From positions 1-35,938 of IMG/VR virus record IMGVR_UViG_3300043395_000917: DNA of 35,938 bases; one strand, 5' to 3'. Source of the DNA: a virus. The position numbers and the translations under genes were made by a program. Every line of letters begins with the position of its first letter. Position 1 is the stretch's first letter. Under the pieces are notes generated by a model. That model saw only the letters and a list, made by a program, of their open reading frames with translations. It did no database searches and was not told the origin of the DNA. Of the stretch, positions 2,859-29,362 are shown piece after piece.

Positions 2859-3094
2859 TTGCTGCCCATCTCCAACTTGCGCACCCGCGTCTCCAGATCG
2901 CTCAGCCGCTCTTTGCTGTCGTTCTTGAGTTCCGTGATGTCGCTCTGCAGGGTCTGCAGCGCTTGGTCGATCTTGGTCACCTGCATGAAGAGGCCACCAA
3001 GACCGAGCACGGCGGCGACCATCAGGGCGGGAATGGTTTGAGCGACCCATGCCGGGGCAATCACCTCAACGTCGTGATGCTGTTGCTCGGCCAC
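2855..3094 (-). CDS. small membrane protein with coiled coil, lysis cassette
   Basis: 79 residues from GTG at 3094. One transmembrane helix (residues about 18-38, IPALMVAAVLGLGGLFMQV) is followed by a heptad-rich helix (IDQALQTLQSDITELKNDS, then LSDLETRVRKLE). This layout, an anchor followed by a coiled coil, recalls XhlA-type holin partners, although XhlA has the reverse order. It sits 3 bases below the stop of the 55-residue gene at 3098 and overlaps the next holin-like gene by 4 bases. It may be a second holin, an antiholin or a spanin-like factor; the sequence alone does not decide. Confidence 0.65.
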   Translation of the reverse strand: MAEQQHHDVEVIAPAWVAQTIPALMVAAVLGLGGLFMQVTKIDQALQTLQSDITELKNDSKERLSDLETRVRKLEMGSK

Positions 3095-3097
3095 GGC

Positions 3098-3265
3098 TCA
3101 ACCCTTACGCCGTCCCTTGTTGCCCTGGCGGCCGTTTGCCACCACCCGCAGCACCTGAAGGCCCAGTTGCACCCAGCCGTTGGCTTTCAGGGCTGGGCTG
3201 AGGCTGAGCAGTTCGCTGCCGGCTAACGCAACTCCTGCCACCTCGGCCACGGTTTTGTAGTCCAT
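3098..3265 (-). CDS. hypothetical protein, first gene of the lysis cassette
   Basis: 55 residues from ATG at 3265, reading MDYKTVAEVAGVALAGSEL and then SPALKANGWVQLGLQVLRVV before a basic tail (RQGNKGRRKG). Weakly hydrophobic helices and the strongly basic C-terminus fit a small membrane-associated or nucleic-acid-binding protein. A longer overlapping frame starting at 3299 encodes a low-complexity peptide and looks like a shadow. The gene follows a terminator (3301-3325) and a copy of the junction motif 23 bases upstream of its start, so it is probably the first cistron of a separately transcribed lysis unit. No clear Shine-Dalgarno sequence is present. Confidence 0.65.
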   Translation of the reverse strand: MDYKTVAEVAGVALAGSELLSLSPALKANGWVQLGLQVLRVVANGRQGNKGRRKG

Positions 3266-3282
3266 CAGGCAGAAGCGTTTCT

Positions 3283-3293
3283 CTAAGGTTGCC
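3283..3293 (-). repeat. junction motif copy behind terminator
   Basis: GGCAACCTTAG, 23 bases upstream of the ATG at 3265. It follows the T-tract of the 3301-3325 terminator by 7 bases, joined by CATGGCC. Confidence 0.6.
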
Positions 3294-3300
3294 GGCCATG

Positions 3301-3325
3301 AAAAAGCCCCCGCCGTAGCGAGGGC
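3301..3325 (-). terminator. rho-independent terminator upstream of lysis genes
   Basis: On the minus strand GCCCTCGC pairs with GCGGGGGC around a TACG loop (one G-T pair) and is followed by five T. It lies 24 bases below the stop of 3350-3541 and ends the capsid-gene transcript. Confidence 0.8.
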
Positions 3326-3349
3326 CCTTGGCGATCCCCAGCTCGCAGC

Positions 3350-3541
3350 TCAGCCGTCCAACTCAGCTGCTTGCTCAGAACTTGCCTTCTTCTTGCCGCT
3401 GGTCTTGGCCACCACCGCCTTGCGCTCGTCAGCGCTCAGGGTCCAGCCATTGCGCAGGGCATCCATCATCTCCAACCGGGTGGAGGCCACATACGTGGCC
3501 CCCGATTCCGGGTGGGTGAGGGTGACCGGATAGGCCGACAT
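3350..3541 (-). CDS. small virion-region protein
   Basis: 63 residues starting MSAYPVTLTHPESGATYVA and ending in a lysine/alanine-rich tail (TSGKKKASSEQAAELDG). The first half looks like a compact beta domain (VTLTHPESGATYVASTRLEM) followed by a helix (MMDALRNGWTLSADERK). The ATG at 3541 overlaps the stop of the upstream gene (TGATG); a GTG one codon earlier is possible. Position directly after the capsid genes suggests a small head protein, for example a head-tail joining or decoration factor, but no family is recognised. Confidence 0.65.
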   Translation of the reverse strand: MSAYPVTLTHPESGATYVASTRLEMMDALRNGWTLSADERKAVVAKTSGKKKASSEQAAELDG

Positions 3542-3948
3542 CACTTAGCGATGTACAGCACAGCGGTGGCAGCACCAGGGCTGCCGGTCTTGGTGAGCAC
3601 ACCCTTGACCACAGCGGCACGGCCGCCGAGGCGTTGGGTCACTTCAGGACCAGAGAAGGGCAGCTCCACGGTCTTGGCGGTAGCCGGCAGGGTGATGGAC
3701 TCGATGGTGACAAAGGTGCCACCGGCTGCAGTTGCAGCTTTAAAGTCCACGGTCCACTCAGCAGTGCCAGCGGTGTAGGAGCTGTAACCCTCAGAAGCCA
3801 CCACCACCTTGGCGGTGTCCAAGGAGGAAGCGTCAAAGGTCACCTCAGAACCGGTCTGGGTAGAGGTAACAGCAGCTGCATCAAGCAGCTCCAGAGCGGA
3901 ATCGCGCAGGTATCCCCGGCGATCACTCATTCCAGTTGCAACAGGCAT
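3541..3948 (-). CDS. putative head decoration/structural protein
   Basis: 135 residues starting MPVATGMSDRRGYLRDSAL. The body is rich in Ala, Thr, Val and Ser with alternating strands (TSTQTGSEVTFDASSLDTA, KVVVASEGYSSYTAGTAEW), which is the composition of small virion beta proteins. It follows the major capsid gene by 32 bases, and a GAGG lies 8 bases before the ATG, one of the few clear Shine-Dalgarno sites here. Decoration or cement function is inferred from its place beside the capsid gene. Confidence 0.65.
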   Translation of the reverse strand: MPVATGMSDRRGYLRDSALELLDAAAVTSTQTGSEVTFDASSLDTAKVVVASEGYSSYTAGTAEWTVDFKAATAAGGTFVTIESITLPATAKTVELPFSGPEVTQRLGGRAAVVKGVLTKTGSPGAATAVLYIAK

Positions 3949-26040: not shown

Positions 26041-26655
26041 CTAGAGCCAGCCAGCATCCATCTGATCGTCGGCGGAGTGCAGCTCAAAGCCGCCCAGCTC
26101 ATGGCCCATGCCAGCGGTGGCGCGTAGGTCCAGCTTCAGCTCCTCGGCCGTGATGCCGAGCTTCTCGCACACCTGCGCCATGGTTTCACCGCGTTCCAAC
26201 AGGCGTCTGGCGTGCATCCCGCGCTGACGGACCGCACCGGGGGCCTTGAGCCAGAAGTTGTGATCGCGGATGTAGTGACGCCACTCACCCAGGATGAAGG
26301 GCAAGGCGATGGTGGAGAACTTGAAGCCGGTGGCGGCGTCGTATTTGCGCACCGCCTTGAGCAGGCCGATCAGGCCCAGGCTGTAGAGATCCTCGATCTC
26401 AATGCACTTGTACTTGTGGTGCTGCTGCTTGATGATCAGCTTGAGCAGGGGGATGTGCTGCTGCACCATGCGCTCCTCAAGGCGGCGCTGGCGCGGGCAG
26501 TGCTCGCGGTAGAGGAGGGTCTTCGGGCGGGTGCTCTTGGGCTTGGGCGGCGGCAGCTTGCCGGTGGGCAGCGGTGCGGGCTGCCAGGGGCCATCGGAGA
26601 GGAGCTGAAAGCTCAGCTGGCCATCGCAAGGTCTGTGGCGCTGGGGTTTGGTCAT
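26041..26655 (-). CDS. phage sigma factor with regions 2-3 only
   Basis: 204 residues from ATG at 26655 (MTKPQRHRP), overlapping the terminase stop as TGATG; an ATG two codons earlier is possible. Residues 1-55 are Pro-rich and basic. Residues about 60-135 are sigma region 2: LLKLIIKQQHH, EDLYSLGLIGLLKAVRKYD, then FKFSTIALPFILGEWRHYIR, close to the SigB/SigF subgroup. Residues about 145-182 fit region 3 (GETMAQVCEKLGITAEELKL). The protein then ends (HSADDQMDAGWL) with no region 4, which would bind the -35 element and the beta flap. T4 gp55, a late sigma, likewise lacks a canonical region 4. Its place between terminase and portal suggests control of late genes. Confidence 0.85.
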   Translation of the reverse strand: MTKPQRHRPCDGQLSFQLLSDGPWQPAPLPTGKLPPPKPKSTRPKTLLYREHCPRQRRLEERMVQQHIPLLKLIIKQQHHKYKCIEIEDLYSLGLIGLLKAVRKYDAATGFKFSTIALPFILGEWRHYIRDHNFWLKAPGAVRQRGMHARRLLERGETMAQVCEKLGITAEELKLDLRATAGMGHELGGFELHSADDQMDAGWL

Positions 26656-29039
26656 CACCATGCGGCGGCCTGCCCGTAGGAGACAGCGGCAGCGGTGCTG
26701 ATCGCTGGGCGTGAACGGAGCCAGGAGAGGCCTTGGCTGAGCGCGTCCACTTGGTCGTCGTGGGCGGCATTGGGGAAGGCAGCGGCCTCTTCAATGAGAG
26801 CCGAGGCCCAGCTGCTGCGCTCCGGCAGGTAGACGTTGCCGGCCTCGATCATGGGGGAGATCGCTGAGGCGCGCGAGAACTTCCCGCCTTGCGGGTTGAC
26901 CGCGATCAGGCCGGGCACCTTGGTGCGGAGCATGGCGATCACAGCCGGGCCGTTCGCCTTGTCTTCCACCACCGTGGCGACAGGCTTGTAGCGGTTGAAG
27001 GTGTTGACGATGGCGGGGATCGTCTCGGTGATGTCGAGGCGGTCGCGGATGCAGTCGAGCAGGTAGAAGCTGGCGCCTTTCTGACCGATGACTAGGCCCA
27101 CCACGTAGTCGGTGTTGGGGCCGTCTTTGAAGGTGAGATCCCAGCTGGTGATGATCCGGTCGAGTTGGGGCAGTTCGCGGTAGGTCTGCCACCAAGAGCG
27201 CTTGAACAGACCACCGGCGGGTGGGGAGGGCCGCTGCTGAAACAGGGCATTGAAGCCGTATTCACCCAAGACGCGGCGGCGATCTTGCAGGGCGGTGAGG
27301 TCGTAGCGCTCAGGGCAGAGCGCAGCACCAGGTGTGCGGCCGAGGGGATCGTTGTCTTCTGCGATGGCGGGCAGGTTGACGACGGTCCAGCTGTCGGCGT
27401 CGTCGGAGTTCAGGATGCGGCCGGCCAGGTCGTCTTCATGCCAGCGCGTCATGGTGAGCACGACGGCACCACCGGGTTCGAGGCGGGTGTAGAGGTCGTC
27501 TCGATACCAGTTCCAGACGCGCTCGCGGTAGGCCTCGGATTCAGCCTCCTCGCGGGATTTCACCGGGTCGTCGATGATGATGCAGTTGTGACAGAGCAAT
27601 CCGTTGGCAAAGAAGTTGTGGTTGTCTTTGACTTGGATGTCGTAAACAGTGGCCTGTCTGCGTAGTCGCTCAACCATGGCAATGGGTTCGTAGATCGCTT
27701 GGAATCCAAAGCCCTGTGCAACCTGAAGTGACACGTTCGGCAGAGCGTTACCAAGTTGGTTGCGCGGTTGTTCATGGGCCAGTTGTCGATGTGATGAACA
27801 TGCAGATAGTCGGTGGCCTTGCAGTTCACGCAGGCAAACCCGTCTCTTTTTTTGACCAACTCGCGCATGATCCTGAACGCCTTGGCCGAATGAGGCTGCG
27901 CACGCAATGGCGTTGCCCCATGCTTCCATTTGGGGTTTTGCTTGCCACTCATCAGCCTTGAGTGCCCCCTGTTCTTGCAGTCCATGCTGCAATAGGTTGC
28001 GAAACCGTTTCCTACGCCCCTCCAGAATGCTTTGAACTCGCAGTTGCACTCTGGACAGCGCTTGATCACAGGCGGATGCACTGGCTGGCGTCTTTGCCTC
28101 AACACGGGCAGGCAAGCATCGCAAAACTTGCGATTGTGCTTCTTGCGAGCCCCGCAGACACAGACTGGACAGTTCTTGATCGCGTGGTGAGCTTCGGAGC
28201 AAGGCCGGCTGCAATAGATGTCCTTGTGACCTTTTGCCTCCCACTTCCTGAAGTCGTAGGCCGCCTTGACTCCGGTCTTCTGGCACCAAGAGCATGAGAA
28301 GCTCACCGGCGGAAAGTGAAGACGCTTCCCGATAGTCTCCGGCCACGTAGAAGCGATGGTTTCCCGTAGCTTCAACCACTCGTCCAGAGGCAGTGGTGAT
28401 TCGGTAAAGCCAAGCTCCCTGACGTACCTGGATAGCTTGGGCTTCTTTGTACTCAAGGCGGCCGTTTTTATAGCTCAGTATTTTATCGGGCTTGGCGCCA
28501 ACATTGATCTGTTCAATGGGTACAGATCCGCGTCTTGTTTGCACCATGGTTCCTGCAGGTAAGCAGTTGGCACCAAGGCCGGTAATACCACCACCCACAC
28601 CAACAGCCCGCAAGCCGCCGCCTGATGCGGTTTCCCATTGCTCAACGGCCTTGCGGTCGGAAGCGATGTTCATCCGCTCTGAAGCAATCCGCCGAGCCTG
28701 CCGGCTGAAGGTATTAGCCAGCGTCTGCGAATAGGCCGCGATCACCACGCGCTGCGTGGGGTCTTGCTCTAGGCGATACACCGGGTAGCGGATGGTGCCT
28801 TGGTGGCTTTTGCCATGACGGGGCGGCACGGTGACGATCAGCCGCTTGAGATCACCAGCGGTGATGGCGTCGAGGTAGGTGCGGATGTAAGCGAGGTGCG
28901 GCCAGTCCCAGTTGTCGTTGGGGGAGACCTGCTTGAGCCAGTCGTAGAAGGAGAGGCGCTCTACGGGCTGGGTGGAGCGGTCGTTGAGAAAGGCCGTGAT
29001 GGGCTCGGGCTTGCAGATACCAGCAAGAAGCGATGCCAT
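26655..29039 (-). CDS. terminase large subunit, interrupted by an intein
   Basis: 794 residues from ATG at 29039, overlapping the small terminase stop (TGATG). The packaging ATPase and nuclease is in two parts. Residues 1-158 hold the Walker A motif PPRHGKS (72-78). Residues 159-485 are the intein. Residues 486-794 open with Walker B (CIIIDDP, D490-D491), the coupling motif (LTMTRWHEDDLAGRIL) and the RNase H-like nuclease (ITSWDLTFKDGPNTDYVVG; NAAHDDQVDALSQGLSW). Excision would leave 467 residues, a normal terminase length. A 42-residue in-frame extension to 29165 overlaps the small subunit gene and lacks similarity to terminase, so I did not use it. The gene is in one open frame through the intein. 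Confidence 0.93.
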   Translation of the reverse strand: MASLLAGICKPEPITAFLNDRSTQPVERLSFYDWLKQVSPNDNWDWPHLAYIRTYLDAITAGDLKRLIVTVPPRHGKSHQGTIRYPVYRLEQDPTQRVVIAAYSQTLANTFSRQARRIASERMNIASDRKAVEQWETASGGGLRAVGVGGGITGLGANCLPAGTMVQTRRGSVPIEQINVGAKPDKILSYKNGRLEYKEAQAIQVRQGAWLYRITTASGRVVEATGNHRFYVAGDYREASSLSAGELLMLLVPEDRSQGGLRLQEVGGKRSQGHLLQPALLRSSPRDQELSSLCLRGSQEAQSQVLRCLPARVEAKTPASASACDQALSRVQLRVQSILEGRRKRFRNLLQHGLQEQGALKADEWQAKPQMEAWGNAIACAASFGQGVQDHARVGQKKRRVCLRELQGHRLSACSSHRQLAHEQPRNQLGNALPNVSLQVAQGFGFQAIYEPIAMVERLRRQATVYDIQVKDNHNFFANGLLCHNCIIIDDPVKSREEAESEAYRERVWNWYRDDLYTRLEPGGAVVLTMTRWHEDDLAGRILNSDDADSWTVVNLPAIAEDNDPLGRTPGAALCPERYDLTALQDRRRVLGEYGFNALFQQRPSPPAGGLFKRSWWQTYRELPQLDRIITSWDLTFKDGPNTDYVVGLVIGQKGASFYLLDCIRDRLDITETIPAIVNTFNRYKPVATVVEDKANGPAVIAMLRTKVPGLIAVNPQGGKFSRASAISPMIEAGNVYLPERSSWASALIEEAAAFPNAAHDDQVDALSQGLSWLRSRPAISTAAAVSYGQAAAW
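27560..28456 (-). CDS. HNH homing endonuclease nested out of frame in the intein
   Basis: 298 codons from TTG at 28456, +1 relative to terminase; a GTG at 28306 would give 248 residues. Residues about 55-86 are a zinc ribbon (FSCSWC to YCSRPC), 96-115 a second (NCPVCVCGARKKHNRKFCDA), 134-160 a third (KRCPECNCEF to FATYCSMDC). Residues 199-248 are a clear HNH domain: KKRDGFACVNCKATDYLHVH, then H221, H222, NLVTLCRTCHFRLH with C209, C212, C239, C242, N234 and H243. Residues after 250 and before 50 overlap the intein splicing blocks and read as their out-of-frame shadow. No Shine-Dalgarno site is clear at either start. It would cut an intein-less terminase gene to spread the element. Confidence 0.85.
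   Translation of the reverse strand: MSTKKPKLSRYVRELGFTESPLPLDEWLKLRETIASTWPETIGKRLHFPPVSFSCSWCQKTGVKAAYDFRKWEAKGHKDIYCSRPCSEAHHAIKNCPVCVCGARKKHNRKFCDACLPVLRQRRQPVHPPVIKRCPECNCEFKAFWRGVGNGFATYCSMDCKNRGHSRLMSGKQNPKWKHGATPLRAQPHSAKAFRIMRELVKKRDGFACVNCKATDYLHVHHIDNWPMNNRATNLVTLCRTCHFRLHRALDSKRSTNPLPWLSDYADRPLFTTSKSKTTTTSLPTDCSVTTASSSTTR
27585..28565 (-). mobile_element. intein in the terminase large subunit
   Basis: 327 codons in frame with terminase, inserted between GLGAN and CIIIDDP. Block A begins with Cys1 (CLPAGTMVQTRRGSVPIEQI). Block B is TTASGRVVEATGNHRFYV, with the conserved histidine in GNHR. Block F is TVYDIQVKDNHNFFANG and block G is LLCHN, with the terminal Asn followed by C+1 of the extein; all residues for splicing are present. 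Between the blocks about 200 in-frame residues look like no known endonuclease; this part carries the HNH gene in the other frame. It is a class 1-type intein judged by Cys1, His-Asn and Cys+1. Confidence 0.88.
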
Positions 29040-29362
29040 CAGGACATCTCGAAGCGGAGCAGCTTCGCTTGGTCTTCCAAGGCCTTGAGGGCGACACCGA
29101 GCTGATTGGACTCGGAAGCGCGGCGTTCGTATTCCTGCAGGCGCGCGATAGCGGCTGCGAGCCATTGGGGGCGCTCTAGCTCAGCGTCAAGCTGCATGAG
29201 CTGACGAGCGCGGGCCATGTAGTTTTCGGCCTGACGGTCACCAACACCCCAGGATTCCGAAGCGAATCGAATGATTTGGGTGCGACTGTAAGCGCGCAGA
29301 AGGAGGTCGTAGACCGTATTGATGCGGTCGTCTATTTCGGTATTGGTTGACTTTTTTGCCAT
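29039..29362 (-). CDS. terminase small subunit
   Basis: 107 residues starting MAKKSTNTEIDDRINTVYDL. A short N-terminal HTH (SRTQIIRFASESWGVGDRQA, then ENYMARARQLM) recalls the DNA-recognition domain of small terminases. A helical oligomerisation region follows (WLAAAIARLQEYERRASESN; LGVALKALEDQAKLLRFEM). It lies directly before the large subunit, overlapping by one base. It would recognise the packaging site and load the motor. Confidence 0.85.
   Translation of the reverse strand: MAKKSTNTEIDDRINTVYDLLLRAYSRTQIIRFASESWGVGDRQAENYMARARQLMQLDAELERPQWLAAAIARLQEYERRASESNQLGVALKALEDQAKLLRFEMS

Follow-up and report, generated by a model that had tools for sequence, protein, structure and literature searches.

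A terL intein overlapped by a +1-frame HNH reading frame in a virus genome and its relatives in phages and plasmids

The terL locus and its two reading frames

The window, i.e. the whole stretch of 35,938 nucleotides that was analysed, is a virus record and includes genes for portal, head and tape-measure proteins and for an endolysin. On its minus strand, terL forms an unbroken frame from an ATG at 29039 to a stop at 26655 (Table 1), with the terminase ATPase and RNase H-like domains flanking an insert, one on each side. Judged from its residues, its Hint fold and the existence of intein-free alleles, this insert is a class 1 intein that is predicted to splice. The TerL product matched Pfam Intein_splicing (1.7e-16), as well as intein_Nterm (4.7e-8) and intein_Cterm (1.7e-8), and Intein_splicing was also matched by all 12 family members tested. 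An earlier note, made from the letters of this DNA alone, had described terL as open across a complete intein, and we found that Cys1, T67 and H70 of block B, H326-N327 and Cys+1 are indeed all present and conserved. In alignments A3 and A5 the class 1 residues (Cys/Ser1, block B TxxH, the C-terminal (H)N and the +1 nucleophile) were invariant, the His being replaced in members of the S-EIVl type. Excision is predicted to leave a TerL of 467 residues (158 + 309), the length given in the note. In an AlphaFold (AF2) model of the TerL-frame intein, the two Hint halves fold with confidence, nearly all of their residues having a pLDDT over 90, and the linker between them is disordered (pLDDT under 50); Foldseek matched this model to mini-inteins (Ssp DnaB, Npu DnaB and Mtu RecA).

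In the +1 frame, where the note had placed an HNH protein, family searches found an ORF for a multi-zinc-ribbon protein that matched Pfam HNH (9.4e-5, above the cut-off) and phrog_1271 (7e-26). Pfam HNH was matched by 11 of the 12 family members tested, and the zinc CxxC residues and the catalytic H, N and H residues are intact and invariant in the family. Downstream of TTG 28456 there are later candidate starts at TTG 28375 and GTG 28306. The model of the HNH protein had a mean pLDDT of 71.5; residues 11-50, encoded over block B, had mean values per block of 74-85 and include a helix (residues 24-37), a finding that fits an upstream start near 28456. Foldseek searches of the PDB with this model returned only weak HNH folds (best E 0.025). 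From the intact motif and the mobility of the element described below, we infer that the ORF encodes a homing endonuclease.

Directly upstream of terL, and joined to it by an ATGA-type overlap, is a small ORF (29039-29362, minus strand) that lacks a Pfam match and whose position suggests a terminase small subunit. Two sigma-70-like genes (phrog_351) were also found in this 36-kb record, at 45-956 on the plus strand and at 26041-26661 on the minus strand, the latter overlapping the end of terL.

Table 1. Features of the terL element in the window, and of the second terL intein in two related loci
Feature	Coordinates	Strand	Remarks
terL precursor, 794 aa including the intein	26655..29039	-	Terminase_6C/6N; phrog_38 2e-111; single open frame
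N-extein, 158 aa, with Walker A	28566..29039	-	
Class 1 intein, TerL frame, 327 aa	27585..28565	-	Directly before Walker B (GLGAN/C-IIIDDP)
N-terminal Hint half, residues 1-98	28272..28565	-	pLDDT >90 nearly throughout
TerL-frame linker, residues 99-282	27720..28271	-	pLDDT <50; no recognised domain; only kept open
C-terminal Hint half, residues 283-327, His-Asn at end	27585..27719	-	
C-extein, 309 aa, Walker B and RNase H nuclease, Cys+1 first	26658..27584	-	
Zinc-ribbon HNH nuclease ORF, +1 frame, 298 aa from TTG 28456	27560..28456	-	
HNH catalytic domain (HHID...N...CHxxxH, two CxxC pairs), +1 frame	27713..27832	-	
Dual-coded stretch: block B (TerL frame) and HNH N-terminus (+1)	28296..28456	-	Family-wide constraint from ~28415
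Second terL intein, TRWHEDDL site, in locus L005	2846-3646 (nuclease 3067-3543)		
Second terL intein, TRWHEDDL site, in locus L007	2043-2846 (nuclease 2240-2755)		

Conservation of the offset and selection on both frames

A first scan with the HNH query found nine IMG/VR loci, all with the HNH at +1 and TerL open, and in a second record both ORFs, TerL and HNH, were present in full and identical (100%). Named holders, again all at +1, were Gordonia phage Clown, Synechococcus phage S-EIVl and the Streptomyces plasmids pCQ3 and NBC_01353. With further scans, one whose query was the C-terminus of the intein with its extein, leaving the nuclease out, and one using divergent HNHs, the total reached at least 122 loci in at least 79 clusters at 90% nucleotide identity, the locus counts being lower bounds drawn from the best 80 matches per query. 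Among the matches listed, the HNH was exactly at +1 in all 71 clusters with a full-length intein at the same Walker B site, and the shortened inteins retained an HNH remnant at +1 in six cases and no HNH in two, one of which (L106) lies in a different gene. No HNH in frame or at +2 was found among the 77 listed clusters with a detectable HNH; the offset that the earlier note had read from a single locus is thus conserved in its homologues. A blastn search against phages gave no match.

Four of the short inteins (L043, L046, L051 and L072) occupy the same terL site and have lost most of the HNH, of which a tail, out of frame, remains; the two Hint halves are still present. In the two plasmids (L030, NZ_CP108353.1; L031, NC_013449.1), the feature table, which is incomplete, lists one CDS for the nested HNH ORF and another for a C-terminal piece of TerL, and none that spans TerL as a whole; our analysis corrects this annotation. 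The loci L092-L111 from the C-terminal scan were rejected as relatives, those inspected being mostly split or mini inteins of ribonucleotide reductase. In four of them (L092, L093, L100 and L109), a ribonucleotide reductase gene contains a split intein, with a nuclease-like ORF standing on its own between the two halves, which is the layout of fractured genes.

The number of stops expected in the TerL frame was obtained by shuffling synonymous HNH codons. In the 15,695 codons of the 71 clusters, which, like the pairs compared below, share ancestry and so give counts that are not fully independent, the TerL frame had no stops against 642 expected, an effect that is large and repeated in separate lineages, whereas the third forward frame had 736 against 674 expected. 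At the window locus alone there were 0 against 7.0 expected (P<0.0005), and chance can be excluded as the cause of the open TerL frame. Because the GC content of the clusters ranges from 35 to 69%, this depletion is not an artefact of high GC. The HNH frame had two stops, in L009 and L053. In L009 it is interrupted by a TGA at intein nt 277 with the TerL frame open, and the HNH frame of L053 is likewise broken, indicating that some copies are inactive; the nuclease has apparently decayed in both without harm to the intein.

For 14 disjoint pairs we compared changes that are silent in one frame only, per opportunity. TerL-silent changes exceeded HNH-silent changes over intein nt 0-90 (0.48 vs 0.24), whereas both classes were low over nt 150-270 (0.22-0.29), indicating that this stretch, which includes block B, is dual-coded. 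In the intein core the rates were 0.56-0.65 for HNH-silent changes and 0.13-0.20 for TerL-silent changes, from which it appears that the HNH alone is constrained there and the TerL linker is merely kept open; over the last 45 nt they were 0.09 and 0.39, respectively. Taken together, the silent changes show selection on both frames, with constraint on the HNH only in the middle, on the Hint domain only at both ends and on both proteins across block B. Stops in the HNH frame followed the same course, being at the expected level at first, dropping to 10 over nt 150-270, where 66 were expected, and reappearing about 50-60 nt before the end of the intein (near 27640); the onset of HNH-frame constraint lies about 150 nt after Cys1 (near 28415). 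Contrary to what the earlier note had supposed, the borders of the HNH therefore do not coincide with those of the splicing domains, since the HNH overlaps both halves (near 28415 to near 27640). The larger proposal of that note, in which the intein splices, its linker is not a nuclease and the nuclease is produced as a protein of its own, agrees with the comparative data on constraint and offset.

Mobility and expression of the element

The TerL proteins of Gordonia phages KimmyK and Twister6 are 81% identical to that of Clown and have an empty site, reading PMD/FGIIDDP in place of PMD/intein/CGIIDDP, and the terL sites of ZL12 and Pam1 are empty too. When 180 flanking extein residues were compared, L004 and L019 shared 34% identity in the extein, 64% in the Hint domain and 82% in the HNH, and L012 and L047 shared 84%, 27% and 35%, respectively. 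This discordance between extein and intein suggests that the Hint domain and the nested HNH gene move together, and the terL element thus appears to be horizontally mobile as a unit. The terL of L019 contains a second intein as well. Conservation of the splice domains suggests that the short nuclease-less forms are still functional; such forms, and the stops in L009, are predicted by a homing cycle in which decay of the nuclease is uncoupled from the intein.

We consider it highly probable that the terL insert is a mobile, cis-splicing class 1 intein with a separately translated, antiphase (+1) homing HNH nuclease. Ribosomes starting at terL would produce TerL-N/intein/TerL-C with a disordered linker of about 184 residues, itself a mere stop-free shadow of the nuclease gene, and the Hint halves would fold and splice to yield mature TerL. 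Other ribosomes, probably a minority, would read the +1 frame from a start within the N-terminal splicing domain, for which TTG 28456 is the best candidate in the window, to give a free zinc-ribbon HNH. This protein would cut the intein-less terL of co-infecting phages, and repair would copy the intein and the nested gene together.

Searches for a conserved HNH start codon or Shine-Dalgarno site found none, and start codons were not clearly enriched in the HNH frame; the one signal, TTG at nt 240-270 (35 vs 15), probably reflects conservation of a Leu codon. GTG 28306, which falls on the conserved Gly-Asp codons, was rejected as a universal start, since loci such as L010 and S-EIVl lack it and the dual constraint reaches upstream of it. 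The last upstream stop of the HNH frame lies anywhere between -248 and +262 nt relative to Cys1, and in 69 of 69 loci a start codon comes after it. This pattern, which many local starts would be expected to produce, favours internal initiation over +1 ribosomal frameshifting from the TerL frame. Frameshifting, which would yield a TerL-N/Hint-N/HNH fusion, is unlikely, though it accords with the lack of a conserved start or Shine-Dalgarno site and with the finding that, of the first 15 loci, 14 have no HNH-frame stop across block B; no common slip site was seen when the printed sequences were inspected by eye.

A role for the HNH as a packaging partner of the terminase rather than as a homing enzyme is quite improbable. 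Its gene lies in terL, and HNH enzymes are known to help some terminases (cited in PMC11855218), but close relatives without the whole element have an intact TerL, the intein and extein histories are discordant, and relatives of this HNH are found both inside a methylase gene and as genes of their own. Still less credible is the idea that the intein alone matters and that the HNH ORF is a dead relic: the HNH is lost from the short forms and broken in L009 and L053, but the scarcity of stops elsewhere, the invariant HNH and zinc residues and the strong constraint on HNH-nonsynonymous changes all speak against it. Group I introns often contain HNH genes, but removal at the RNA level by a group I or group II intron carrying the HNH gene is very hard to reconcile with a TerL frame that is fully open and under selection and encodes a complete, conserved Hint fold, and there was no Rfam match at E<=1. 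Finally, two indels arising in assembly or sequencing could displace a normal in-frame HNH in a single contig, but this explanation, which the earlier note had said would need two compensating indels at exactly both domain borders, is refuted by an offset that does not vary among 71 independent clusters, some of them from isolate phages and plasmids, by the purging of TerL-frame stops at this locus and across the family, and by the second, identical record.

A second terL intein and comparison with known systems

Loci L005 and L007 have another intein further down terL, in which Pfam Endonuclease_7 (1e-15 and 1e-18, respectively) is hidden at +2 (Table 1). Scans keyed on the C-terminus and extein of this intein and on its nuclease found it in at least 89 loci in at least 66 clusters, with the nuclease at +2 in 89 of 89. 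In 60 clusters the TerL frame had no stops against 80 expected, and the nuclease frame had none. Gordonia phages Angelicage and Vivi2 are among the named holders, as are Mycobacterium phages Chandler, Phlyer and AlanGrant, the +2 offset being verified from coordinates in Chandler, AlanGrant and Vivi2. Three loci (L198, L216 and L254) carry both inteins in one terL, the HNH (+1) upstream and the endonuclease VII (+2) downstream.

Inteins are commonly taught to be either single polypeptides with splicing and homing functions or nuclease-less mini-inteins. With confidence only slightly below that placed in the terL element itself, we regard antiphase nuclease genes within continuous splicing inteins as a recurrent and stably inherited architecture, with at least two origins in terL (HNH at +1 and endonuclease VII at +2) and true dual coding that includes block B, in phages of 35-69% GC. 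Where splicing and homing are performed by separate proteins from the same DNA, loss of the nuclease cannot break splicing, and the dose of nuclease can be set apart from that of TerL. Genes of this kind may lie concealed in many long-linker inteins that seem to lack an endonuclease, and annotation should allow for inteins scored as nuclease-less that encode a nuclease in another frame. The terL element also offers a long-lived and deeply sampled case of dual coding with the third frame as a built-in control, and the model of invasion by a mobile element can be tested in isolate phages (the pair Clown/KimmyK; Chandler).

The earlier note knew of no precedent. For an antiphase nuclease within a continuous intein this still stands, as no such paper was found in a search of the literature outside subscription journals and preprints; on out-of-frame nucleases in inteins the search turned up the ShiLan papers alone, and these supply a partial precedent without a splicing domain. 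The ShiLan domain, or hidden HNH, of mycobacteriophage methylases (Arsenault et al. 2025, PMC11855218), in which its authors found no intein, is likewise a zinc-finger HNH whose frame differs from that of the phage gene in which it lies, within an insert that has no stops; it is homologous to the HNH of Clown (Clown vs Mantra, 35%, 3e-7). However, the ShiLan HNH is at +2, as computed here, and its insert has no splicing domain, stays in the protein and resides in a dispensable methylase, whereas the terL HNH is at +1 within a full splicing intein of an essential packaging enzyme.

The intein of the second family has been studied under another name. Chandler gp6 contains the TerL6-f C-motif intein, which splices in a reporter assay (Kelley et al. 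2016, PMC5050341), so that, by inference from the published construct, splicing of a hidden-nuclease intein has already been demonstrated for this sister family. That study linked nuclease activity to recognisable domains at sites b and c, and the passages of it that we examined make no mention of a hidden nuclease in TerL6-f. According to the present analysis, TerL6-f resembles the Walker B-site intein in having its nuclease out of frame, but differs in terL site, nuclease family and offset, as well as in having been shown to splice.

Canonical inteins with an in-frame homing endonuclease, such as TerL1-b and TerL1-c (Kelley et al. 2016, PMC5050341), share with the terL intein the class 1 motifs, an insertion site at an ATPase motif, presence or absence among relatives and a nuclease situated where the Hint fold normally accommodates one; in the terL intein, however, the nuclease is in another frame and another polypeptide, and the linker is non-functional shadow sequence. 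Fractured genes, in which split inteins are accompanied by a separate nuclease gene (Dassa et al. 2009, as cited in PMC3229294), resemble the terL element in having that gene between the intein halves. According to the same citation, their host gene is in two pieces, joined by trans-splicing, and there is no overlap, whereas in the terL element the host gene is continuous in a single frame, splicing is predicted to occur in cis and the nuclease gene is fully overlapped.
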